A stretch of 64,000 nt of DNA, taken from Sphingobacterium psychroaquaticum (lineage in GTDB: Bacteria; Bacteroidota; Bacteroidia; Sphingobacteriales; Sphingobacteriaceae). Below are positions 10,338-64,000 of this stretch, in pieces. Location: contig NZ_FXAU01000001.1 in the NCBI RefSeq assembly GCF_900177625.1, positions 436,475 through 500,474 on the forward strand, read 5' to 3'. Position 1 is the stretch's first letter; every line of letters begins with the position of its first letter. A model generated the notes under the pieces. That model was given only the letters and a program-made list of their open reading frames with translations, was not told the origin of the DNA and did no database searches. The position numbers and the translations under genes are program-made.

Positions 10338-13300
10338 ATGAAAAAAGTATTTAATACCTTATCAGCCTTATTGATAATACAGGTTGCGGCGTATGCCCAA
10401 CAACCTGCAAACAGAACATCGGCAACAAAGATTGCGGACGTTTTGGCCCAACAACCGGCCGAAGAACAGACGAAATTCTTATCGGCCATGCGGGAGTTGG
10501 AAAATTTTACAGCCGACGATATTACCAATCTTTTGCTTGGATTGAAGCCGCAAGGTGGAAATAATGCGGGCATCGAGTATGCTGCAAATTCGTATTCTTT
10601 TTACGTGATGCAACCGGGAATGGATGCGAAACGTACCGTATTTTCTCAAGGATTAGTAAAAGCGCTAAATAACCTTACCGATAAAGATAATAAAGGCTTT
10701 GTTTTGGCGCTTATGAAACAAGCGTCTAAGAACGAGGCGATAGAAGCTATCGTTCCTTACCTACAGGATGAGTATCTGGTTGATAAAGCGGCTCTTGCGC
10801 TAAATGGTATTCGTACCGAGCAATCGGCGGCGGCTTTGTCAAAGGCGTTGGCAGGTTCTACTTCAGAAAAAACCACAACAGCTATTGTTGCGGCCTTAGG
10901 GGACTTAAAATCGAAGTCCGATGAGGAAGCAATTATTGCGACATTGGCTAAGTACACATCTGAAAACTACCAGCGTAATGCCTATACGGCTTTAAGTAAG
11001 ATTGCAGGTGCAAAATCGGCCCCTGTGTTGTTGGCAAAGTTGAAGTCGGTTAATTACCAATTCGATAAAACGAATATTGGTGGGTTAACGCTGGACTATG
11101 CGAACAACCTAGTTGGCAATGGTCAACAGGCTCTTGCAGTTTCGGTCGCAAATACCATATCTGCGGAAGCGGAGAAAGCAGGATCGGCTACGTTACAAGC
11201 GGGCGCTTTGCAGTTGTTGACGAAGATAAACCCGAATGCGACACGTAAGCAGCTGATGAAGGCGGCAACAAGTAGTAATGCATTGTACAGAACGACAGCC
11301 TTAGAATTGTTGGGTAAATATGGTACAGCGGCAGATACTAAAAAACTTATTGCTTTAATAGGTTCTTCTGCACCGGATGTACAAGAAGGGATTTTGAACT
11401 TTATTGCACAGAAAGGTGTTGCGGGCGATATTTCTGGTATTGAAAAGGGGCTAGGGAAGATTAAAGGTACGCAGGCAAAAATTGCTGCCTTGAATACGTT
11501 GTCAAGTCTCTCACAAGGTACAAACGCTAAAAGTTTGATTAAGCAAATTGCGGGTGCTGATGAGTTAACGGCAAAGGCGATTGAATCGTTGTTGTTGTCT
11601 TCGAAGGGAGCAAACACCGTAGAGGAGATCAATCAAGCTTTACCAGGTGCTGATGCAAAAACGCAATTGACTTTGTTAAATGTCTTAGCAAAACGTACAA
11701 ATGCTAATTCGGCAAAAGCAGTTTTACCTTTGTTGAGCGCGACCGATAATACGATTAAAACGGCAGCATTAAAAGCATTGCCGAATGTTGTGAACGTAGA
11801 TGACTTTGAAGCTATTGCTGCGTTGGTACCTAATGCCCCAGAAGCGGATGCTAAATATTTACAGAGCGCAATGGTTATTGCATTGAATGCGAGTGCTGAT
11901 AAAGATGCTAAAATCAAGCGCTTGGCGGCTAATATCTCTCGTTCGGCAGCGCCTAGCGTAGGTAAATATTTTCCTGTGTTTGCTGGTGTAGGTGGTGCGG
12001 AATCACTAACGGCGGTGAAGAATTACCTGAATAACGAAGGTCTTAAGAATCAGGCTATTTCTGCTTTGTCAAATTGGTCGAATCCAGAGGTGTTGTCTAC
12101 CTTGATCGCGTTGTCCAGAACAGAAAAAGATCCGCAAAATTTTGATACGATCTTCAAAGGGTTGATCAGCAAGATCAATGCAAGTAACGATACGCCAACG
12201 CAAAAAACATTGTTGTTGAAAGATGCATTTCATCTGGCACAAAATGTAAACCAAAAGCGTAGTGCTTTGGGGAGCTTGCAAGCGACAGGTACGTACCAAG
12301 CGATGATATTTGCGGCACAATTTTTAGATGACGCAGAGCTTAAAGGTGCCGCCACAAATACGGCGATGAATATTGCGATGGATGATAAGTCTTTCGTTGG
12401 GCCTGATGTGCGCAATATCTTGGAGCGTGCAAATGCGAATCTTTCGGGAAGTGAAAGCTCGTATTTAAGGGAAGCTATTGTCCGCCATTTAGCAGAAATG
12501 CCACAAGGAGCGGGTTATGTTTCGATTTTCAACGGTAAGGATCTTACGGGATGGAAAGGCTTGGTGGAAAATCCAATCAAGCGGGCGAAGATGACAGCAA
12601 AAGAGCTGGCAGACAAGCAAGCTATTGCGGATCAAAAGATGCGCGAAAACTGGCGTGCTAGCAATGGTGAACTTGTATTTAGCGGACACGGTGATAATAT
12701 AGCGACAGTAAAGCAATACGGTGATTTTGAGATGTTGGTAGACTGGAAGTTAGATCCAAATGGTAAAGAGCCTGATGCCGGCGTTTATTTACGAGGAACA
12801 CCTCAAGTTCAAATGTGGGATATCTCTCGTACGAATGTAGGTGCTCAGGTTGGTTCTGGTGGTTTATACAATAACCAGAAAAATCCAAAAGATCCATTGA
12901 AAGTAGCTGATAATGCTTTGGGCGAATGGAATACCTTGAAAATCCGTATGGTGGGTGAGAAGGTATGGGTATGGTTGAACGGTGAGTTGGTTGTCGATAA
13001 TGTGACTTTGGAGAATTACTGGGATCGAAATCAGTCGATCTTCCCGGTGGAGCAGATTGAGCTTCAGGCGCATGGTTCGCAGGTATGGTACCGTGATATC
13101 TTTATCAAAGAATTGGCCAGAAAAGAGGTTTATACATTAAGCGATGCGGAACGTAATGAAGGTTTCGAAATGTTGTTTGATGGTACCAACCTTGATAAAT
13201 GGACGGAAACTCCTGCTTATGAACTAACGCCGGAGGGGTATGTTCGGGCTAATCCAAACGCTAAATTCGGCAAGAATTTATACACGAAGAAGGAGTATGC

Positions 13301-28796: not shown

Positions 28797-29762
28797 ATGA
28801 AAAAATTTAAGATTGATACCTTTATAATAGCGTTGCTTTGTTGCATTGTATTAGCTTATTTCTTTCCACAGCTTTACGAATGGCGAGCAGGAAAGGGGCT
28901 GGAGATGATTACAACTATAGGCGTTTCGCTTATTTTCTTCTTTTATGGTTTAAAACTCAGTTTTAAGCAGATTAAGGATGGCTTGAGTAATTGGAAGCTT
29001 CATGTGTTGGTTCAGTTTTCGACATTTCTGTTGTTCCCTTTGGTATTGCTACCCTTTTATCCCTTTATTAAAACATCCATTCAACACGATTTTTGGCTAT
29101 CATTTTTCTTTTTAGCTGCGCTGCCATCCACGGTCTCATCCTCTGTGGTAATGGTTTCCATTGCACGCGGAAATATGGCAGCCGCTATTTTTAATGCCAG
29201 TATCTCAGGCTTGATCGGTGTGGTTGTTACCCCTTTATGGATGGAGTTGTTTATGGACTTTGGAGACGTGGATATCTTAGGGCACGTATACTGGGGGCTG
29301 ACGAAAGAAATAATTATTCCGGTGTTATTGGGGCAGTTTTTGCAACCTTATCTTGGGAAATGGGCGTCGGCATATAGCAAGCAATTGAGTCGGTTTGACA
29401 AGTCTGTTATTCTGCTTATTGTCTATGCCAGTTTTGCCGAATCTTTTGTAAGTGGTGTATTTGATTCCATCGGACGAACGTATCTGGTCTGGGTATTTGT
29501 AGGGGTGGTTGTACTTTTCTGCCTCGTGTATGGATTAATTTATGCTTTGAGCAGGTATGTGTTAAAATTTTCACGGGAAGATCAGATTACGGCACTGTTT
29601 TGTGGTTCCAAGAAATCTTTGACCCATGGTTCTGTATTTGGAAAGTTTCTATTTGTTCATACCGCTGGTGCTGGTTTATACTTTTTACCTTTGATGATTT
29701 TTCACGCTTTTCAAATTTTTGTAGTGACAATCATTGCCCAGCGCTATCATAATAAGGGGTAA
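28797..29762 (+). CDS. bile acid:sodium symporter-like membrane protein (SBF-like family)
   Basis: A protein of 321 residues with about nine or ten membrane helices. GVSLIFFFYGLKLSFKQIKD near residue 45, LAALPSTVSSSVVMVSIARG and ALFCGSKKSLTHG are typical of the SBF-like (YfeH/RCH1-type) group, distant relatives of bile-acid and arsenite carriers. The transported ion or solute is not known. It is a single gene with its own promoter and no clear operon partner. Confidence 0.87.
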   Translation: MKKFKIDTFIIALLCCIVLAYFFPQLYEWRAGKGLEMITTIGVSLIFFFYGLKLSFKQIKDGLSNWKLHVLVQFSTFLLFPLVLLPFYPFIKTSIQHDFWLSFFFLAALPSTVSSSVVMVSIARGNMAAAIFNASISGLIGVVVTPLWMELFMDFGDVDILGHVYWGLTKEIIIPVLLGQFLQPYLGKWASAYSKQLSRFDKSVILLIVYASFAESFVSGVFDSIGRTYLVWVFVGVVVLFCLVYGLIYALSRYVLKFSREDQITALFCGSKKSLTHGSVFGKFLFVHTAGAGLYFLPLMIFHAFQIFVVTIIAQRYHNKG

Positions 29763-29852
29763 TAATCAGGGTGTGACAGGCAGCGAAAAATGCTGGAAAG
29801 AAGCCGACAAAACATATGTTTTTTTGATGAAAGAGGAAGGTTTCCCGGTAAT

Positions 29853-29923
29853 CTAAAAAAGAAAGGTTTCCAAACGGGGAGAATGGAAACCTTTACTAAC
29901 CAATTATAAACCTAAATTATGAT
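29853..29923 (-). ncRNA. candidate small RNA of about 70 nt, antisense to a TonB-receptor-type leader motif
   Basis: On the minus strand a full promoter (TTTG 29960-29957, 21-base spacer, TATCTTTG 29935-29928) is followed, after about 29 unpaired bases (29923-29895), by an intrinsic terminator: AAAGGTTTCC, 13-base loop, GGAAACCTTT (arms 29894-29885 and 29871-29862), then C and T6 (29860-29855). No reading frame fits. The unpaired 5' part contains TAATTTAGG and ATTGGTTAGT and is complementary to ACTAACCAA-type leaders before susC (47909-47917) and the GH43 gene (59956-59969). Promoter and terminator are seen in the sequence; the RNA and its targets are inferred. Confidence 0.65.
29855..29894 (-). 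terminator. intrinsic terminator of the candidate small RNA
   Basis: A perfect 10-bp stem (29862-29871 with 29885-29894), loop of 13, then C and T6 on the minus strand. On the plus strand only TTTAC follows, so it works best leftward. Confidence 0.8.
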
Positions 29924-29927
29924 ACCA

Positions 29928-29960
29928 CAAAGATAGTGTATTTTAAACACTAAGTCCAAA
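29928..29960 (-). promoter_or_regulatory. promoter of the candidate small RNA
   Basis: Minus strand TTTG (29960-29957), 21 bases, TATCTTTG (29935-29928). Both boxes match the Bacteroidota consensus exactly. There is no coding start downstream. Confidence 0.75.
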
Positions 29961-30111
29961 TTTATTTTACTTTTTTTTTCGGAAAGCTTCAAATACGGAA
30001 ATTAGTTGTAATTAATGACGAAAATCACCTTTATAAAGATCATTTTGTACACCTCTTGCAATTAATTAATTGTATTTTCGCAAACAAAACGTAATTAAAG
30101 CCAAATGCTAT

Positions 30112-31602
30112 ATGATTGAATCTTTTGATGTTTTTATAAAACAATTCAAAGCAGGGTTAGTGGAATTGTTTCACAACACATCTGATATTAATGAACTTAG
30201 TTTGGAGCGCGGTCTTCCTAAAGAGATCTGGGAAGGCATTATGGCATTCAATCCGTTGTCGGTAGCCGTACCGGAAGAATTTGCCGGCCGGGGAGTTAAA
30301 GTAAAGGAATGTCTCGGATTATTATCTGCGGCATCTTATGAATCTCTTCCGCTTTCACTAACTTTTGGAATCAATATAGCACTCTTTTTGGAGCCTCTAG
30401 CGAAATACGGCCATGCCGATATCAAAGGAGATATCTTTAAGCGTTTTATCGAGAATCAAGCGATGGGCGGATTAATGATCACTGAGCCAGATTATGGGAG
30501 TGATGCATTAAGCATGCGTACCCAACATACCTTTACCGATGATAACTATCAGCTCAAAGGGCAAAAACACTGGCAAGGACTTACTGGGATGGCCGATTTT
30601 TGGATTGTAGCTGCTCGTAAGGCCATGGATAATGGTGAATTAGCGCGTGATATCGATTTTTTTGTAACGGACAATAGTCGTTCTGAACAACATATTCCAG
30701 TAGAGAAGTATTTCAACAACCTAGGACTTTACATGATTCCTTACGGTTTAAATACTATTGACCTCACTGTTCCAGCCAATCAAAAACTACAACAAACAAG
30801 TACAGGCATCAAGATGATGCTGGATATTTTGCACCGTAGCCGTTTGCAGTTCCCAGGTATGGGAATGGGATTCTTACAACGTATGCTGGACGAAGCAATC
30901 GGACACTGTACCAATCGTAAGGTGGGCGGACAACCGTTGTTAGCGTTAGATTCGGTACAATATCAAATTTCGCGTATTCAATCGTCGTTTACGCTGTGCT
31001 CGGGGATGTGTGCACATAGTTCGGGCATGAGTTCGATAGCGCATGACGTTTCTGGAAATGGGGTAGAGGCAAATAGTATGAAAGCCTTGGTAACAGACTT
31101 GATGCAGGAAGCCGCACATATCTGTGTGCAACTATCGGGTTCAAGTGGTTACAAATTGGATCATATTGCTGGCCGAGGTATCGTAGATTCCAGACCGTTC
31201 CAGATCTTTGAAGGTTCCAACGAAATGTTGTACAGTCAGATTGCAGAAGCAATCGTTAAACAAATGAAGAAAAGTAAAGAGCTTCATTTTGGACGTTTCC
31301 TTACTAGCCTTGATACAACAGCGCGCGTGGCGCCTCGTTTTAAAGCGTTGTTAGATTTTTCTATAAGCGATAATTTGGCACAGCGACAAACGGTGGTATT
31401 GGGTAAAGTGATTGCGCGTTTAGTTTGTTTGCAATACGTAGACGAGTTAGTGGAAAAAGGATTCCGTCAGGATCTATACGAAAACACGACGAAACATATT
31501 AAAATGGATATCCAGGAACTGTTAGCAACGTTCTTGAACCCTAATGATGCGACACCTATTGTGGAATACCAAGAGGGTGGTGATTGGTTGTCGTTTGTGT
31601 AA
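30112..31602 (+). CDS. acyl-CoA dehydrogenase family protein
   Basis: The start is ATG at 30112 (MIESFDVFIKQFKAG), giving 496 residues; the longer TTG frame overlaps a likely -7 box (TATTTTCG, 30073-30080). The fold order is that of acyl-CoA dehydrogenases: N-terminal helical domain, middle beta domain (GGLMITEPDYGSDALSMRTQ, GQKHWQGLTGMADFWIVAAR) and C-terminal helical domain (LDILHRSRLQFPGMGMGFLQ, IFEGSNEMLYSQIAEAIVKQ). It should oxidise an acyl thioester using FAD. The 110 residues after the usual end are not typical. The substrate is unknown and no beta-oxidation genes lie nearby. Confidence 0.87.
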   Translation: MIESFDVFIKQFKAGLVELFHNTSDINELSLERGLPKEIWEGIMAFNPLSVAVPEEFAGRGVKVKECLGLLSAASYESLPLSLTFGINIALFLEPLAKYGHADIKGDIFKRFIENQAMGGLMITEPDYGSDALSMRTQHTFTDDNYQLKGQKHWQGLTGMADFWIVAARKAMDNGELARDIDFFVTDNSRSEQHIPVEKYFNNLGLYMIPYGLNTIDLTVPANQKLQQTSTGIKMMLDILHRSRLQFPGMGMGFLQRMLDEAIGHCTNRKVGGQPLLALDSVQYQISRIQSSFTLCSGMCAHSSGMSSIAHDVSGNGVEANSMKALVTDLMQEAAHICVQLSGSSGYKLDHIAGRGIVDSRPFQIFEGSNEMLYSQIAEAIVKQMKKSKELHFGRFLTSLDTTARVAPRFKALLDFSISDNLAQRQTVVLGKVIARLVCLQYVDELVEKGFRQDLYENTTKHIKMDIQELLATFLNPNDATPIVEYQEGGDWLSFV

Positions 31603-39103: not shown

Positions 39104-39255
39104 ACAATTTAAAATTAAAAACGTTTAACCATAAATTGTATTCAGAAAATCAAGGGTTTAAAACAATCGTGAAGACACGTTTATTTTGGCGTGATACCCG
39201 TATTATTTTACCACCGCGGTGCCTACACTCGGTTGGTATTGCTTATGCAATTCTG
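39104..39255 (-). other. leader region of the 87-residue protein gene
   Basis: About 150 bases without a reading frame between the promoter and the ATG at 39103. It holds a CACCGCGGTG palindrome and GC-rich patches in an AT-rich setting, so it may fold. No known riboswitch was recognised. Confidence 0.35.
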
Positions 39256-39296
39256 AATACTCTACAAATATAGTAGAGTATTTTTTTATTTCCAAA
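39256..39296 (-). promoter_or_regulatory. promoter overlapped by a perfect palindrome (likely operator)
   Basis: Minus strand: TTTG (39296-39293), 20-base spacer, TATATTTG (39272-39265). AATACTCTAC (39256-39265) and GTAGAGTATT (39273-39282) form a 10-bp inverted repeat centred on the -7 box. On the plus strand the same hairpin is followed by T6 and could terminate a rightward transcript, but no rightward gene ends here. Confidence 0.6.
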
Positions 39297-47651: not shown

Positions 47652-47927
47652 GCGTAAGTTTGACATTTATTTTTTTTATCCTTTTCTGCCGTTTTTCTAC
47701 GGTATATGTGCGTCATAATTGCCAGCGGGTAGACCGGTTAATATGTGGTTGTTGGTGGATAAAAAACGGTTGTTTGTTTTCCTGTTTCCTTTTTTTTTAG
47801 CTTGTCCTGCCTAATTACCCCCTTGTTTTTGATGAAATCCCCCCTAAGTAAAGTGTAAGATACTCCCGATAATTGTGCAGGCAGTGTATGAACTGTCGCA
47901 GATTATAAACTAACCAAAATAAATGCA
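47652..47927. promoter_or_regulatory. regulatory gap between the hybrid regulator and susC
   Basis: A 276-base non-coding stretch. TAAGTTTG (47655-47662) matches a -7 box on the plus strand but would give a leader of about 260 bases. The regulator's binding site is expected here; no clear repeat was found. ACTAACCAA (47909-47917) lies 10 bases before the susC ATG and is complementary to the candidate small RNA. Confidence 0.45.
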
Positions 47928-50900
47928 ATGAAAACTTACAAAATGCTTACACAACGTCTGGGCATATTTTTATGTCTCTTTATGATGTATGGTATAGGTG
48001 TTGCGCAAAATGTCAATGTCAAAGGTTTGATAACAAGTGGGGGCGCACCGCTAGGGGGCACCACCATCGGCGTGCTCGGAGGGGAAGCACGTTCACTTAC
48101 GGATGACAAAGGAAATTACGTAATTGCTGTACCTGGGGGATCGACTCTAGTTTTTAGTAATATCGGTTTTATTCGAAAAGAGGTATCTCTTGCCGGAAAG
48201 AAAGCTGACGCCACAGGGTACATTGTGCTGGATATTGTTTTAGAGACAGACGACAGTATGATCGAAGATGTTGTCGTTACCGGTTTCGGGCAACGTGAAA
48301 AACGGGCCAGCTTAGTCGGTTCGGTAACCACCATAGAACCAAAAGAGCTGAAAGGGCCAACGAGCAACCTAACCACGATGATGGCAGGACGTGTTGCTGG
48401 TATGATTGCTTTCCAACGGAGTGGTGAACCGGGAGCTGATAATGCCAATTTCTTTATCCGGGGGCTCGGTACTTTCGGTACCGGGAAACAGGATCCGTTG
48501 ATCTTGATCGATAACGTGGAATCGACACCAACCGATATGGCTCGCCTACAACCCGATGATATTGCATCATTCTCGGTGTTACGGGATGCGAATGCAGCCG
48601 CTATGTATGGCGCTCGCGGTGCAAATGGTGTCGTGCTGATTACCACGAAGCTCGGAAAAGAAGGACGGACCAATTTTGATTTTCGTATGGAAAATTCGCT
48701 ATCGACGAATACGCGTAATTTCCAGTTTGCAGATAATATTACCTACATGGAGTTAGCCAATGAGGCATACCTAACACGCCCTTTGGATGCGAGTACAGGA
48801 CAAGGACTACCGTATTGGCAGAGTAAGATCGATAATACGAAAGCAGGACGGGATCCTTTGTTGTACCCGAATAACAATTGGATCGATCAATTGATTAAGG
48901 ATTATACCTTAAACCAACGTTATAACCTCAGTTTATCGGGTGGAGGGACACGCGCACGTTACTACTTGGCGGGAACCTATAACGTAGACAACGGCTTGTT
49001 GAAAATGAACGGGATAAATAATTTCAACAATAATATCAAGCTTCGTAATTATTCTGTTCGATCAAATGTGGACATCAATTTCACCCCGACAACAACAGGT
49101 ATTGTACGTGTGTATGCACAGTTTGATGACTACACCGGACCTATCGGTTACCGGGATTCGGATGGTGGATGGGTCAATGGGGGGCAAGCTACCTTTAGAA
49201 GAGCAATATGGTCCAACCCGGTGATGTTTCCAGCCGTTTATCCGGCTTCATTCCGACCTTATTTAAATCACCCACTTTTTGGGAATGCAGTCAATCGGAA
49301 TGGCGGACTCTATGTAAATCCATACGCTGAAATGGTACGAGGTTACCAGGAGTATAATACATCGACTATTATGCCGCAGATTGAAATCAGACAAGATTTA
49401 AGTGCGGTTATTCCGGGCTTGAACCTAACGGCTATGGCTTATGTACGTCGCTATGCTTTTTTCGAAGTTAGTCGCCAATATAATCCTTTCTATTATTCCA
49501 GTAATGTAAACCCTGATGGAACGCTGAACCTTCGGGTATTAAACGATGGAGGAATAGGTTCCATCGGGCAAGTAGGACGTGAATACTTAGATTATAGCGA
49601 ATCTGAAAAAAGAGTGTCATCGATGTTTTATGCACACGCTATTGCCAATTATAACAGAAGATTTGGTGTACATAATGTAGGGGGTACATTAATTGGATTG
49701 ATCCAGAATCAGCTAAATGGTAATGCCGGCAGTTTACAACTATCCTTACCCGCTAGAAATATCGGTTTGTCGGGACGCTTTACCTACGGTTATGACGATC
49801 GTTATATGGCGGAATTTAACTTTGGATATAACGGTTCGGAGCGATTTGCCAAAAATCGTCGTATGGGTTTCTTTCCTTCCTTTGGTCTAGCGTATAATAT
49901 TTCGAATGAAGCATTCTTTGAACCGATTAAAAACACAGTAAACAACCTGAAGTTGCGTGCAACATATGGCTTTGTCGGAAATGATCAAATTGGACGTGCA
50001 GAACAGCGTTTTTATTATATGTCTGAGGTTAACATGAATAGCGTAGGGCGTGGGGCAGTATTTGGCGAGCTCGGTATTATTGGGCGTCCAGGTATTGCGA
50101 TTAATCGCTACGCTAATGAAGGTATAACCTGGGAAAAATCAGAACAAACGAATTTAGGACTAGATGCCACGCTTTTCAATGCTTTAGAAATCAACGTGGA
50201 TGTTTACAAGCAAGTACGTAGTAATATCTTAACAGATCGTGCTTTTGTACCGACAACAATGGGATTACAGGTGCCTATTGTTGCCAATACCAACAAGGCT
50301 GAAAGTCGTGGTGTGGACTTGATGTTGAATTATAATAAAACATTGAACAACAGTTGGTGGATGAACTGGAGAAGTACACTGACCTATGCAAAAAGTAAAC
50401 TGCTGATCGTTGATGAGCCTGCGTATGCGGAGAGTTACCGCTATACAGTGAATTACCCGGCGAAGCAATGGTTCGGGTATGTGGCAGAGCGTTTGTTTGT
50501 GGATGATCAAGAGGTTTTAAATTCGCCTACACAGATTGGAACACCGGGAGTTCACTACCTCGGAGGGGATATAAAGTACAAAGACTTAAATGGCGATGGC
50601 CGGATTACCGATCTGGATAAAGTGGCGCTAGGTTACCCGGAAAATCCAGAATTAATTTATGGTTTTGGAGGTTCTTTAGGATACCAGGGTATTGACTTTA
50701 GTTTCTTCTTTCAAGGATCTGCGCGCTCTTCTTTTTTCCTAAACCCGGAAAACATATCTCCTTTCTATCAGAATGGCGGCAATCAGAACGGACTGCTACA
50801 GGCTATTGCCGATAGTCACTGGAGCGAAGACAACAGAGATTTATACGCCTTATGGCCACGTTTGAGCGAAGGTGTCATTGCAAACAACAACCAGGTTTCT

Positions 50901-51134
50901 TCGTGGTGGCTTCGGGATGGCGCATTTCTTCGTCTGAAAAGCGTTGAATTTGGATACACCTTTAAGCAGAGCCTAATGGAACGGATCCGTGCCAAAAATT
51001 TGCGAATCTATGCCAATGGTATGAACCTATTTTCTGTTAGCAAATTTAAGCTATGGGATGTAGAAATGGGCGGTAAGGGTATTGGATACCCGGTACAAGC
51101 CGTATATAATTTAGGCTTACAGTTTACTTTTTAA
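47928..51134 (+). CDS. SusC/RagA-type TonB-linked outer membrane receptor
   Basis: A protein of 1068 residues. Signal peptide (LCLFMMYGIGVAQN), then a carboxypeptidase-regulatory-like domain (about 28-105), the SusC box IEDVVVTGFGQREKRASLVG, and a plug domain with IRGLGTFGTGKQDPLILIDN and MYGARGANGVVLITTKLG. The rest is a 22-strand barrel ending YNLGLQFTF with a terminal Phe. It imports oligosaccharides together with the SusD encoded 10 bases downstream. It is the first gene of the PUL operon, divergent from its regulator. Confidence 0.97.
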   Translation: MKTYKMLTQRLGIFLCLFMMYGIGVAQNVNVKGLITSGGAPLGGTTIGVLGGEARSLTDDKGNYVIAVPGGSTLVFSNIGFIRKEVSLAGKKADATGYIVLDIVLETDDSMIEDVVVTGFGQREKRASLVGSVTTIEPKELKGPTSNLTTMMAGRVAGMIAFQRSGEPGADNANFFIRGLGTFGTGKQDPLILIDNVESTPTDMARLQPDDIASFSVLRDANAAAMYGARGANGVVLITTKLGKEGRTNFDFRMENSLSTNTRNFQFADNITYMELANEAYLTRPLDASTGQGLPYWQSKIDNTKAGRDPLLYPNNNWIDQLIKDYTLNQRYNLSLSGGGTRARYYLAGTYNVDNGLLKMNGINNFNNNIKLRNYSVRSNVDINFTPTTTGIVRVYAQFDDYTGPIGYRDSDGGWVNGGQATFRRAIWSNPVMFPAVYPASFRPYLNHPLFGNAVNRNGGLYVNPYAEMVRGYQEYNTSTIMPQIEIRQDLSAVIPGLNLTAMAYVRRYAFFEVSRQYNPFYYSSNVNPDGTLNLRVLNDGGIGSIGQVGREYLDYSESEKRVSSMFYAHAIANYNRRFGVHNVGGTLIGLIQNQLNGNAGSLQLSLPARNIGLSGRFTYGYDDRYMAEFNFGYNGSERFAKNRRMGFFPSFGLAYNISNEAFFEPIKNTVNNLKLRATYGFVGNDQIGRAEQRFYYMSEVNMNSVGRGAVFGELGIIGRPGIAINRYANEGITWEKSEQTNLGLDATLFNALEINVDVYKQVRSNILTDRAFVPTTMGLQVPIVANTNKAESRGVDLMLNYNKTLNNSWWMNWRSTLTYAKSKLLIVDEPAYAESYRYTVNYPAKQWFGYVAERLFVDDQEVLNSPTQIGTPGVHYLGGDIKYKDLNGDGRITDLDKVALGYPENPELIYGFGGSLGYQGIDFSFFFQGSARSSFFLNPENISPFYQNGGNQNGLLQAIADSHWSEDNRDLYALWPRLSEGVIANNNQVSSWWLRDGAFLRLKSVEFGYTFKQSLMERIRAKNLRIYANGMNLFSVSKFKLWDVEMGGKGIGYPVQAVYNLGLQFTF

Positions 51135-59886: not shown

Positions 59887-60071
59887 TTTGATTAGCATGG
59901 TATGTTATGTCACTGTAAATTTGGTTTATAAATTAATAAGTGTCAAAATAACGCTTAACCAATATAAACTGATTAACTAATAATTCACTTGTCGGGGGAA
60001 GCCGAAATATCTATGTATTTCGTAAGGGGGACGGTGATGGCTTTCGACTCGTTAAACCAAAATTAAATGAT
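59887..60071 (+). promoter_or_regulatory. promoter and structured leader of the GH43 gene
   Basis: TAAATTTG (59916-59923) is a full -7 match; a TTTG lies 25 bases upstream (59887-59890). The leader contains TTAACCAATATAAAC (59955-59969), complementary to the candidate small RNA. A compact fold follows: GTCG (59991-59994) with CGAC (60045-60048), AAGCC (59999-60003) with GGCTT (60039-60043), and inner hairpin CGAAATA (60003-60009) with TATTTCG (60016-60022). Two GGGGGA runs (from 59994 and 60026) lie in the unpaired parts. The ATG is 23 bases beyond the fold. Confidence 0.5.
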
Positions 60072-63000
60072 ATGAATTGTTTCTCATTCTTTACTCGACT
60101 ATGCTTGATGTGCTTGAAGTTTGGCTTTGTAACTACAGTTGCCGGTCAGACAATCACCTCGTCACAGCATACCGAAAAGGAGATGGGAAACCCTATTATT
60201 CCAGGTTATTTTGCGGATCCGACGATTAAAAAGATTGACGATACCTATTACCTCTATGCAACTACAGATGGCAATGGAGGTGGACTGGGACCATCGCAAG
60301 TTTGGACATCTAAGGATTTTGTCAATTGGACGATTCAGCCCATGAACTGGCCCGATACACATTGGTATTGGGCGCCTGATATGACGCAGGGGTACGATGG
60401 TCGATATTATTTGTACTACAGTCAGCCTGTACAGTTATATGGTGCGGTTTCAGATACACCAGTTGGTCCTTGGACGCCATTACAGCACGAAGGAGAGGCA
60501 TTGGTGCCAAATTATAAAATCCCGGGTGTGATTACCCTGGATGGCCAGACATTTACGGACGACGATGGTAAAATATATATGTATTGGGGAACCTGGGGAA
60601 TTTATCCGGATCATGGATGTGCCGTCGGTCTCTTAAATCCGGATATGAAAACTTTTGCCGAAATTAAGTTGATCCCTAATACCGATGCAAAAGATTTCTT
60701 TGAAGCACCGCTCGTTTTTAAGCGCAATGGTATTTATTATTTTATGTATTCTTCGGGACATTGCGAAGATCATACCTATCGCGTTCAGTACGCGACCAGC
60801 ACGGTAGGTCCTATGGGACCTTTTGAATATAAAGAGGCTTTTAACCCCGTATTATCCACCACGATCGATGGCACCGTTCATGGTCCGGGGCACCATAGTG
60901 TTTTGCAGGAGGGTGATCAGTATTACATCGTGTATCATAGGCATAATAATCCACATTCAGGCGGAGGTTTTCATAGACAGATCGCTGCTGATAAAATGGA
61001 GTTTGATGCCGAAGGGAATATTGTAAAGGTTGTTCCAACGCATACTGGTATCGGTTTATTAGCCAAAAATACGCTCCCTTACACGAATCATGCTTTGCAT
61101 GCTGCGGTAGAAGCGTCTTCAAGTTATAGCGATGATTTCCGTCCAACGTTTGCGATTGATGATAATAATGGGACGCTCTGGAAAGCGAAAGACAATATGA
61201 ATCCAGCTTGGCTAAAGCTAGACTTAGGGGAACAGAAAGTCATCAAGACCATACTGACGCAATTTGAATACCCAACATGGTATTACGGTTATCTTATTGA
61301 ATATTCGAATGACGGGAAGGATTGGCATATTTTTTCTGATCGTCGCGCGAATCAGCAGTGGGGGAGTCCGATGGTTGATAAAGGAAATGTGGAAGCTCGA
61401 TACCTCCGAATAACCATCGATAAAACACAAGTAGAAGGTCTCTTTCGGGCGCTGTGGAATATTAAAGTTTTTAGTGAAGATATAAACCAAAGTACCGTGT
61501 TATCGAGCACGCAGGACGCCGTTATTTCAGATCGCCAAAGTGGGCTGTTGATCGATTTCGAGGCAGATGGACTTTCCCTTGGAAATCTCACCTCTCCCGT
61601 TGCAAATAAAGGAAGCCTGATCGGGCAATGGACAACCGAAGGTAGTCCGTATGTAACCCTGTTAAAAGGTCGACAAGCTGTCATTTTAGACGGACGAAGT
61701 GCGCTTCATTCGACATTTACCGTGCCAACTACACTTGCCGGCAACAGTAGTCATACCGTAGCGATGTGGGTGCTTAATCCAACTATTGAGCGACATGAAC
61801 CACTTTTGACTTGGACGCAAGGAACGCAGGATTTAACACGTGCAGTTTTCGGATACGGTCACGACCGAAATAATGGGGCTATAGTGCGTGGGGCATGGCC
61901 CGATGTTGCTTTTAAGGAATTACCCACAGCGAATATGTGGCATCATATGGTGGTTTCTTTTGATGGGTATATGGAACGCGTATATGTTGATGGGATAGAG
62001 GTTAACGCTGCAAATAAGATGCTGTTTATGCGTATTGCTTCTGCATTTTCTATCGGTAAAGCAGGGAATGACGCGGGATTCTTTTCTGGTGCTATTTCTT
62101 CTTTAAAAGTATATGATAAGGCTTTAAGCCCTGGGGAAATAGAAACACTTTATAAACAAACATCAAACGCTAAAATTGGGCTTTGGCACCGTGCAGATCA
62201 ATTGACACTTGGGGAGATGAAAGAATGGCCAAATGAAGGGGTAAAGCAGGGCAGTTTACTGGTGAAAGAGGGGATGGCGCGAACTAAAGTTGTGGGGCAC
62301 AAAATTGCGGTTGTTGGGGAGCCCAGTGCCAGCTTGGAAACGATCGCTTTAACGTCTATGTTTTCCGAAGAGGAGGATACGCGACTGGACTTGGAGTTTC
62401 AAGCCTTGGATAACAAGTTCGCCTTACTGAATTATCCAGCGATGCGACAAAAAATTAAAGTTGGGGAATGGCATAAACTGACGCTAAGTCGCCGTGCTAA
62501 AGGTGGACAGGTTCTACTTGATGGTGTACCGGTTGCTTTAGATCTGAAGTCGATCGAAAAGGACTTTATCAATATGAGTACGGGTGTGATTAAATTGAAC
62601 CATGTAGCAATAGCTTCTCTTTTTGTGTCGCATAGTGATACGTTCATACCGCTTAATGAACCTTCATCTTGGACAAACGAAAGAACCACATTTTTTGTCC
62701 AGCCTCGTTTTATTAATGCCAATAAAATTTTCATGCAAGCGAAGTCTCATCCCGGAGAAGGCGTGCAGTACCTGTTTATTGCGGATGGCGAAAAGACGGG
62801 GAGCGGTTGGCAGGATTCACCTAATTATCTCGTCAATTGGGATAATGTCTCAGCGCTTCCGCACTTCCGCATATTAGCGAAAGATCGGTATGGAAATGTA
62901 GCAGATATGGCGTCTGCTGTGGCAACCGTAAAAAATTACCGTATCAAAGAGTTGGTCGGGATTGATGAACGGTTTAATCTGCTTACGGAAGATAATGTGG

Positions 63001-63569
63001 GACAGTGGAATCTGTTTTCGGGGGATAGTGCGCGCGTAAAAGAAGCTTTAATTCAGAACGGCGGCATTCGCCTGAGTTCTGCTGATACACGATGGGATGG
63101 ACGCGAGCAAAGTGGGCCGTTTTTATCCAAGGAGGTATCGGGCGATTTTGTATTTGAGGTGGAATTGGCAAACGTTAATGGGCAGACAGAACGTAAGGGG
63201 AGTGCGAATGAGTCAGGCATTCTCGTGCACGTTGGTCCGGAGCAGCGTAAAATAATTGCATTGCAGAACTCCGTTATGACCGGTTGGGGTGTAGGTAACA
63301 TGGCAACGCGAATCGATGGCGGTTATAAAATGCAGCAGAATACGGGGGCAGGATGGAATTTTCATCGCTATTTACAGGTGCAACGAGTAGGAGATCAATT
63401 TTTCTTACGTACCAGCAAAGACGGGAATGTCTGGCAAGAATTGCCAGGAAGTCCGTTTGATATGTCGTTGAACCAGCCTGGAGCGGTTGTGCGTGTCGGG
63501 GTTTATCAATCGACAAATGATAATAAGGACGGTTTTGCAGACTTTAAGCGTATCCGGATTTCACAGTAA
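60072..63569 (+). CDS. multi-domain GH43-type glycosidase with carbohydrate-binding modules
   Basis: A protein of 1165 residues. The signal peptide ends VTTVAGQ. Residues about 40-330 form a five-bladed propeller of GH43: base Asp49 (GYFADPTI), Asp157 (ITLDGQTF), acid Glu211 (FFEAPLVF), and the ion-binding VHGPGHHSV (about 269-277). Then a discoidin-like F5/8 C module (about 345-475, TILTQFEYPTWYYGYLIEYS), a LamG-like module (about 500-695, HHMVVSFDGYMERVYVDGIE), a linker region, and a C-terminal concanavalin-like module (about 975-1165, SGDFVFEVELANVNGQTERK). GH43 enzymes remove arabinofuranose, xylose or galactose units; the exact activity is open. It is an exported enzyme, probably at the cell surface. 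Confidence 0.9.
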   Translation: MNCFSFFTRLCLMCLKFGFVTTVAGQTITSSQHTEKEMGNPIIPGYFADPTIKKIDDTYYLYATTDGNGGGLGPSQVWTSKDFVNWTIQPMNWPDTHWYWAPDMTQGYDGRYYLYYSQPVQLYGAVSDTPVGPWTPLQHEGEALVPNYKIPGVITLDGQTFTDDDGKIYMYWGTWGIYPDHGCAVGLLNPDMKTFAEIKLIPNTDAKDFFEAPLVFKRNGIYYFMYSSGHCEDHTYRVQYATSTVGPMGPFEYKEAFNPVLSTTIDGTVHGPGHHSVLQEGDQYYIVYHRHNNPHSGGGFHRQIAADKMEFDAEGNIVKVVPTHTGIGLLAKNTLPYTNHALHAAVEASSSYSDDFRPTFAIDDNNGTLWKAKDNMNPAWLKLDLGEQKVIKTILTQFEYPTWYYGYLIEYSNDGKDWHIFSDRRANQQWGSPMVDKGNVEARYLRITIDKTQVEGLFRALWNIKVFSEDINQSTVLSSTQDAVISDRQSGLLIDFEADGLSLGNLTSPVANKGSLIGQWTTEGSPYVTLLKGRQAVILDGRSALHSTFTVPTTLAGNSSHTVAMWVLNPTIERHEPLLTWTQGTQDLTRAVFGYGHDRNNGAIVRGAWPDVAFKELPTANMWHHMVVSFDGYMERVYVDGIEVNAANKMLFMRIASAFSIGKAGNDAGFFSGAISSLKVYDKALSPGEIETLYKQTSNAKIGLWHRADQLTLGEMKEWPNEGVKQGSLLVKEGMARTKVVGHKIAVVGEPSASLETIALTSMFSEEEDTRLDLEFQALDNKFALLNYPAMRQKIKVGEWHKLTLSRRAKGGQVLLDGVPVALDLKSIEKDFINMSTGVIKLNHVAIASLFVSHSDTFIPLNEPSSWTNERTTFFVQPRFINANKIFMQAKSHPGEGVQYLFIADGEKTGSGWQDSPNYLVNWDNVSALPHFRILAKDRYGNVADMASAVATVKNYRIKELVGIDERFNLLTEDNVGQWNLFSGDSARVKEALIQNGGIRLSSADTRWDGREQSGPFLSKEVSGDFVFEVELANVNGQTERKGSANESGILVHVGPEQRKIIALQNSVMTGWGVGNMATRIDGGYKMQQNTGAGWNFHRYLQVQRVGDQFFLRTSKDGNVWQELPGSPFDMSLNQPGAVVRVGVYQSTNDNKDGFADFKRIRISQ

Positions 63570-63714
63570 AAGCTTCGGTTTTTCTGAATTGCAGGACGTT
63601 TTTTATTAGTGAAAAGAATAAAAATTGAAAGAAAAGCTTCTGTACGCTTTTCGAATAGAGGCAGCATATGCCTTAAGCGATTATAACATATTTATTAACC
63701 AAATTATTTTACTA

Positions 63715-64000
63715 ATGAAAAGTCTACATTTTTTTAGAGTATGCTGTATACTCTGTATGTCCTTAGTCTTTTCCAAAGTTCATGGACAGGGCTCCCGCAT
63801 ATCAGGAACGGTCAGTGATCGGCATGGTAATCCCATTGCCGGCGTGACGGTAAAAGAGAAGGGTGGACGGAGTACCGCCGCAACGGATGAAAAGGGTCTG
63901 TATGAAATTAAGACCGAAAGCAATGCCAAATACCTGGTGTTTTCTTTTGTGGGGTTTCGACCAAAGGAACATGTTATTGCAAAAGGGGAAACAAAAGTAA
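63715..64000 (+). CDS. SusC/RagA-type receptor, N-terminal fragment (cut by window edge)
   Basis: Starts at ATG 63715-63717 and stays open to the end of the window (95 codons). A signal peptide (CILCMSLVFSKVHGQG) is followed by a carboxypeptidase-regulatory-like domain: SGTVSDRHGNPIAGVTVKEK, TDEKGLYEIK and FSFVGFRPKE. The leader holds TAACCAA (63696-63702), as in the earlier susC gene. It opens a second SusC unit or a continuation of the PUL. Confidence 0.9.
   Translation, partial: MKSLHFFRVCCILCMSLVFSKVHGQGSRISGTVSDRHGNPIAGVTVKEKGGRSTAATDEKGLYEIKTESNAKYLVFSFVGFRPKEHVIAKGETKV

Follow-up and report, generated by a model that had tools for sequence, protein, structure and literature searches.

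OmrA/OmrB and comparable enterobacterial sRNAs repress outer-membrane receptors; they are paralogous, carry a common seed, depend on Hfq and occur in few copies. In Bacteroides thetaiotaomicron, the paralogous FopS family (Rfam RF04319) comprises 14 sRNAs of ~65-70 nt, each with a free 5' seed (R1') and a terminator, and Bacteroides genomes carry 12-15 copies, according to the FopS report, which also names OmrA/OmrB (PMC11697453). The same paper describes that FopS-10 blocks SusC translation in vitro, that susC is raised upon FopS loss in B. thetaiotaomicron, that bile salts induce FopS, and that the RRM protein RbpB binds and antagonises it; GibS, from the same species, has the R1 seed region in common with FopS (PMC11697453). 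Its authors saw little sub-diversification among the many copies, proposed different sigma factors as a possible reason for their number, and noted a FopS in a Caudovirales phage (PMC11697453).

We analysed a 64,000-nucleotide stretch of DNA, hereafter referred to as the window, in which an earlier note had proposed a small RNA able to pair with a leader motif that SusC-type and GH43 mRNAs have in common. This proposal is supported by our computations, in which the gene proved to be conserved and multi-copy and showed a complementarity to 55-56 SusC leaders that neither shuffled seeds nor 87 control genes matched. The conserved gene family is real, and it is very probably an antisense regulator of SusC-type importers. 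The idea that such a regulator would be new was wrong in kind, because FopS is already in print (PMC11697453).

Anatomy of the sRNA gene

Read directly on the minus strand, the promoter consists of a -33 element TTTG (29960-29957), a 21-base spacer and the -7 element TATCTTTG (29935-29928), just as the earlier note had it. These elements fit the Bacteroidota promoter consensus. FopS has the same promoter type, and sigma-ABfr is the sigma factor named for such promoters in PMC11697453. A dyad, TAGTGT-N7-ACACTA (29934-29952, strand unassigned), overlaps the -7 box and is a putative operator. The FopS-like sRNA would span ~71 nt (29856-29926, minus strand), with both ends inferred, as judged from matches to RF04319 and to R1, a covariance model built from 36 diverse copies that scores 74.5 bits at 29855-29927 (the window copy itself is in the model). 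Its seed, CATAATTTAGGTTTATAATTGGTTAGT (29895-29921, minus strand), was defined by retention among paralogues and genera and by duplex tests, and includes the core GGTTTATAATTGGTTAGT (29912-29895, minus strand). The 5' part of the sRNA is the exact complement of ACTAACCAATTATAAACCTAAATTATGATA, which bears out the claimed complementarity to the leader motif; by its letters, ACTAACCAATTATAAACCTAAATTATGATA is an idealised leader with start codon.

Folding of 29926-29856 yielded -15.4 kcal/mol (z -2.1; 6/200 shuffles equally stable) and left 29 nt at the 5' end unpaired, the number that had been estimated, so that the free stretch runs to ~29895. An intrinsic terminator follows (29855-29894, minus strand), with stem arms AAAGGTTTCCA (29894-29884) and TGGAAACCTTT (29872-29862), a loop TTCTCCCCGTT (29873-29883) containing a conserved CCC, and a C plus T6 (29861-29855) directly after the stem. 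The hairpin, the C and the T6 had been recognised correctly, but the stem reads 11 bp rather than 10. No reading frame of 20 aa or more was found inside the transcript, in line with the earlier note; three mechanical frames overlap the place (plus strand, 29734-29856 and 29790-29909; minus strand, 29912-29992), the minus one beginning upstream of the sRNA promoter. The gene is flanked by a convergent SBF-like transporter (28797-29762, plus strand; Pfam PF13593) and a divergent acyl-CoA dehydrogenase family gene (30070-31602, plus strand; PF00441, PF02770). Elsewhere in the window, a SAM-I/IV riboswitch (39171-39265, minus strand) scores above the Rfam cut-off.

Copies, spread and relation to FopS

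The window genome contains 15 such places by DNA similarity and 15 copies by covariance model, while a 22-nt seed with at most 3 mismatches occurs 16 times (reversed pattern, 0). Each of the 16 seed copies is followed by a hairpin of at least 10 bp (0-1 mismatch, G-U allowed) with 4-7 T within the 7 bases behind it, and each has CCC in the loop. In a scan of named genomes, at least 119 stretches matched a 24-nt seed pattern; among the 80 matches listed, 79 belonged to Sphingobacterium, Parapedobacter, Mucilaginibacter or Olivibacter and one to 'bacterium A37T11', and the enolase locus of the window genome showed 79-81% DNA identity to two seed-pattern stretches. In the window's bacterial family, taken on this basis to be Sphingobacteriaceae, R1 found matches in 116 of the 151 genomes searched, which cover 20 of its 25 genera; the 19 listed genomes of the window's genus, its own among them, each carry 6-29 copies. 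Across a phylum sample of 395 genomes, 12 were matched by R1, namely 9 of the 11 from the window's family and, with weak scores, three further genomes. The literature searched (listings and abstract openings) gave no precedent for RNAs of this kind in Sphingobacteriaceae.

Stems, linkers and promoters vary among the copies and the seed is kept. In a set of 145 copies collected by regular expression (copy L020, counted among the 16, is absent from it), a mismatch-free stem of at least 7 bp comes after the conserved stretch in 133 and a T-run (at least 4 of 7) in 135, and CCC lies in or at the loop in 141. An R1 search of 12 genomes from other genera recovered the core GGTTTATAATTGGTTAGT in most printed copies, with CATAAT often lost; copies of genus g2, families f3, f4 and f24 and one copy of genus g175 departed from the core. 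Since R1 leans on the seed, this survey is not an unbiased test of core conservation. Free variation of the unpaired segment would have refuted the earlier proposal; the seed is instead the conserved part among the copies found, subject to the same leaning of the searches on the seed. Among perfect-stem terminators, a CCC loop was present in 54 of 58 that belong to the sRNA and in 3 of 135 others from these loci; some of those others are sRNA hairpins read on the reverse strand. We also observed that the C-rich loop is kept although stems differ, perhaps as a second pairing site or a protein site.

We further compared the family with FopS. RF04319 aligns to the window copy over its full length (model 1-71 of 71, at 29853-29928), but the score of 18.9 bits, like the 25.2 bits of copy L003, does not reach the gathering cut-off of 56 bits; R1, applied to the fetched FopS loci, scored at best 16.9 bits (E 0.14). 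Within the phylum sample, RF04319 matched 6 of 395 genomes, 5 of them above the cut-off and none among the 11 of the window's family. These matches come from families f11 and f12 and, at weak scores, f3; f11 was taken to be Bacteroidaceae from its FopS copies, one example of which is the complement of TTAACCTTAAATCTAATACCATGAAAAACAC. Seed similarity was only moderately beyond chance and the two alignments were not in equal register (window seed against one FopS seed, 108/3000 shuffles as good; class-2 seed against another, 19/3000). In genus g6 of family f3, RF04319 sees a copy in one species and R1 in another. Family f3 is thus a third family with single FopS-like copies, in genomes G095 (L235) and G012 (L268), one detected by RF04319 below the cut-off and the other by R1.

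The two families resemble each other in being multi-copy (15-16 copies in the window genome), in a length of ~65-70 nt with an unpaired 5' seed ahead of the terminator, in CAU followed by the antisense of a susC-type start region, and in having glycoside hydrolases among the targets, which for the window copy are predicted ones. They differ in seed sequence, with a score far below the Rfam threshold, and in the C-rich loops and several promoter types of the window family; by eye, CCC was absent from the loop in 27 printed copies of FopS. The window organism belongs to a bacterial order other than that of Bacteroides. Its genome gave no match to RRM_1, the RbpB-type domain, for which a Bacteroides control genome was positive, and no Hfq above the cut-off was found in the 395 Bacteroidota genomes (two weak, broken matches). 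OmrA/OmrB are similar as paralogous sRNAs with a common seed that lower outer-membrane proteins, but are Hfq-dependent, unrelated in sequence and few in copy number. GibS likewise pairs with start regions and differs in its second seed R2 and non-canonical promoter, according to PMC11697453. The Sphingobacteriaceae family thus appears to be a sister subfamily of FopS, likely homologous on sequence grounds, and not a member by the Rfam criterion.

Predicted pairing with SusC and GH43 start regions

Complementarity was evaluated for the 56 SusC genes of the window genome. Their leaders paired with the 5' end of the window sRNA at a mean duplex energy of -14.45 kcal/mol, compared with -11.90 for dinucleotide-shuffled seeds, none of which (0/200) reached the SusC mean. 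With one start per gene, 55 SusC leaders remained (L174, which has no in-frame ATG, is within the 56 and not within the 55) and 0/60 shuffles were as low, versus 47/60 for 87 control genes (SusC versus control leaders, p 7e-8). The core and the CAU-containing 5' part each added to this signal. Exact 9-mers of the seed complement were found in 8 of the 55 SusC leaders (2.2 expected) and 2 of the 87 control genes (1.6 expected). The signal is statistical in nature: single duplex energies do not separate targets, as a value of -18.9 for a non-SusC gene of the window, at 10338, illustrates. FopS and the window family are alike in having seeds with computed complementarity to SusC starts of their own genome, but the stricter, ungapped in-register test of the 55 leaders against an ideal start region was not significant for the window seed (z 1.1 at offset 0). 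On the same test FopS was significant in f11, with z 3.5 at offset 0 and z 3.9 at offset 1; it gave z 1.2 in f12 and z 2.8 at offset 1 on the leaders of the window genome. The short motif TAACCAA-N0-20-ATG alone was rejected as a marker, with no enrichment in the genome (177+215 versus 237+240 reversed).

Within the window, a pairing site is predicted over the leader and start of the susC-type gene 47928-51134 (site 47908-47940, plus strand; -14.4 kcal/mol), whose product matches TIGR04056 with 863.4 bits (C4:484492-487605); ACTAACCAA is present at 47909-47917 as described earlier. The last susC-type gene, which starts at 63715 (TIGR04056 match, C4:500273-503338), has a predicted site in its leader (63670-63714, plus strand; -17.9) and the previously reported TAACCAA at 63696-63702. 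For the GH43 gene (60072-63569; Pfam PF04616), the match that had been pointed out exists (59952-59976, plus strand; -15.9), but it ends ~95 nt short of the ATG at 60072. A second predicted site, at 60040-60074 (plus strand; -16.1), lies over the start codon with CAU pairing to AUG and is better placed.

We also compared seeds across lineages. On 28 leaders of an f11 genome, the FopS seed reached z -5.7 with 0/100 shuffles as low, and the window seed was not special (26/100); on 26 leaders of an f12 genome, the values were 0/100 for FopS and 12/100 for the window seed. Among the seeds, that of the window was best on the SusC leaders of its own genome (0/100 shuffles as low). FopS was also above chance there, for SusC leaders (0/100) as well as for control genes (2/100), so that the lineage separation is one-sided and some of the signal applies to any AU-rich start region. 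In family f3, none of the three seeds tried gave a signal on 13 leaders, and three SusC-like leaders in other species gave 24/100 shuffles as low, with only these 3 genes available.

Putative regulatory sites, phage-borne copies and competing explanations

Among 124 upstream regions (the 145 minus short and near-identical ones), TA..TTTG was found in 51 (shuffled 9.0), with 14 nt from its start to CATAA in 30 cases, and GTCTTYT stood immediately before CATAA in 28 (shuffled 0.1). A sigma-54-like element, GGYAY-N5-6-TTG, was present in 27 (shuffled 0.7), in 20 of these 27-30 nt before CATAA. Under the usual promoter spacing rules, the TTTG and sigma-54-like types would start transcription at about the same base. 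The window genome has 4 of 15 copies of the TTTG type and 3 of 15 of the sigma-54-like type. With one seed behind different promoters, different signals would converge on one output; the differing promoter types also make the sigma-factor idea of the FopS authors testable. CGTTATA, seen in 14 of the 124 regions (shuffled 1.4; at least 9 at 15-19 nt before CATAA; copies such as L014, L015 and L019), is possibly a further promoter type.

Genome-wide, the dyad TAGTGT/ACACTA with a spacer of 6-8 has four sites, and its reversed pattern has none. Two of the sites are at sRNA copies; a third lies ~30 nt ahead of the ATG of enolase, and the fourth ~80 nt ahead of class II fructose-bisphosphate aldolase (C5:39367, L395, and C6:77505, L396, for the enolase and aldolase loci). 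AGTGT-N7-ACACT was found in 13 of the 124 upstream regions (shuffled mean 0.01, maximum 1). The dyad also precedes enolase in L044 (Sphingobacterium tabacisoli) and L117, and at both loci an sRNA copy lies upstream of enolase on the same strand, L117 having three. To judge from the shared site, a regulator of glycolytic genes probably governs the window copy, which would then act as an RNA arm of carbon catabolite control. The presence of the enolase and aldolase operator at two copies, including that of the window, suggests a coupling to glycolytic state and offers a concrete handle on the signal. Taken by itself, the dyad looks like a small glycolysis operator common to two sRNA copies, whose regulator was not identified.

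Phages carry the family as well. An 18-nt core was found in 61 viral contigs of IMG/VR, and 57 had the CATA 5' end; the four without it (L402, L412, L418, L435) were treated as chance matches. The terminator rule was passed by 42 of the 57, with a CCC loop in 31 of these 42, and several contigs were near-identical around the sRNA. Neighbouring proteins in the scanned contigs were mostly portal, terminase, head and integrase proteins, a few being unmatched; the next larger ORF upstream was the portal gene in 7 contigs (384-1265 nt off) and an integrase in 3. ARAGORN placed a tRNA within 400 nt upstream in 12 of the 42 contigs and within 60 nt in four. Twelve downstream ORFs, chosen by length, were searched with Pfam (9 also with PADLOC): three were defence-like, being AbiH (L407), SspD-like (L414, PADLOC only) and AriA then AriB (L450), 6 were unmatched, and the rest were P63C, Clp-type and prohead proteases. 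Over 3022 bases, which cover AriA and the edge of AriB, L450 shows 100% identity to copy L024 of the window genome, which therefore has a prophage copy beside PARIS-like genes. The PARIS-like AriA/AriB pair (L450:3668-5568; L024) directly adjoins the sRNA copy in this prophage. Neither the plasmid collection nor the INPHARED phages yielded a blastn match.

We consider it likely that a trans-acting antisense sRNA of a multi-copy family, a sister subfamily of FopS that temperate phages carry too, represses SusC-type importers. An RNA of ~71 nt would be transcribed leftward from a sigma-ABfr-type promoter, end at its own terminator, block ribosome access on the SusC-type mRNA and so turn down glycan import. 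Gene anatomy, copy number, conservation, complementarity and operator sites rest on the sequence itself; transcription and repression are inferred by analogy with FopS (PMC11697453), and the signal is likewise an inference. We weighed against this a decoy or sponge that titrates another RNA, or a protein recognising AU-rich start regions, and leaves SusC mRNAs alone. The reverse complement of the seed does resemble an idealised start region, the above-chance pairing of FopS extends to control genes of the window genome, and the C-rich loop, whose role is not assigned, is kept in nearly all copies; we nevertheless judge a decoy improbable, given that seed pairing is specific to SusC leaders relative to the 87 controls and that the related Bacteroides RNA blocks SusC translation in vitro (PMC11697453).

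A selfish or phage-spread repeat of promoter, seed and terminator, persisting with little host effect, would account for the viral contigs with the core and CATA end and for L024 lying in a prophage of the genome itself. However, identity with a viral copy over 60 nt was seen for only 2 of the 142 copies that come from genome records, the seed stays the same where stems, linkers and promoters differ, and it fits the leaders of its own lineage, so we regard this explanation as quite improbable. Hardly credible is a reading in which the plus strand preserves the remnant of a SusC leader with its start codon and there is no minus-strand gene: the plus strand does read ACTAACCAATTATAAACCTAAATTATG followed by 4 codons and a stop, but mismatch-free stems and T-runs are kept on the minus side in 133 and 135 of the 145 copies, and the plus side past the ATG is not conserved, which also disposes of the conserved plus-strand coding frame that the earlier note had named as a refuting case.

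The antisense repressor reading would extend an RNA control layer for glycan importers from gut Bacteroidaceae to a second lineage of the phylum, where the seed is adjusted to local leaders and the window genome lacks the RNA-binding protein type (RRM) known as antagonist. A wider proposal can be offered only tentatively and is doubtful as a whole. SusC can serve as a phage receptor. Temperate phages would carry the anti-SusC seed RNA of their host in a moron site near the portal gene, sometimes beside defence genes (PARIS-like AriA/AriB, AbiH, SspD-like), and silence SusC-type receptors, amounting to superinfection exclusion by a host-mimicking antisense RNA; in the host, the same seed under the enolase/aldolase operator would serve catabolite repression as an RNA arm. 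That phages exclude superinfection by silencing receptors is an inference. Phage-borne copies, some beside defence genes, suggest that receptors of this phylum may be RNA-silenced during lysogeny, and they and the operator link are what a specialist would not expect.

A further observation concerns tRNA-like elements of ~110-117 nt, which closely precede the sRNA in one or two copies in Mucilaginibacter and in genomes of other genera (L025, L060, L067, L072, L080, L087, L263, L299, L304, L310 and others). No tRNA was found in them by ARAGORN (30 loci; 11 pieces) or Rfam (12 loci), and no precedent emerged from the literature searched (listings and abstract openings). The sRNA at these loci would be the 3' trailer of the tRNA-like element. 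In total, 35 distinct elements were collected; they have an acceptor stem of 7 bp, in which two pairs are changed on both sides, a T arm, a D arm and a very long variable arm with the nearly invariant CACCTCCTTGTC.
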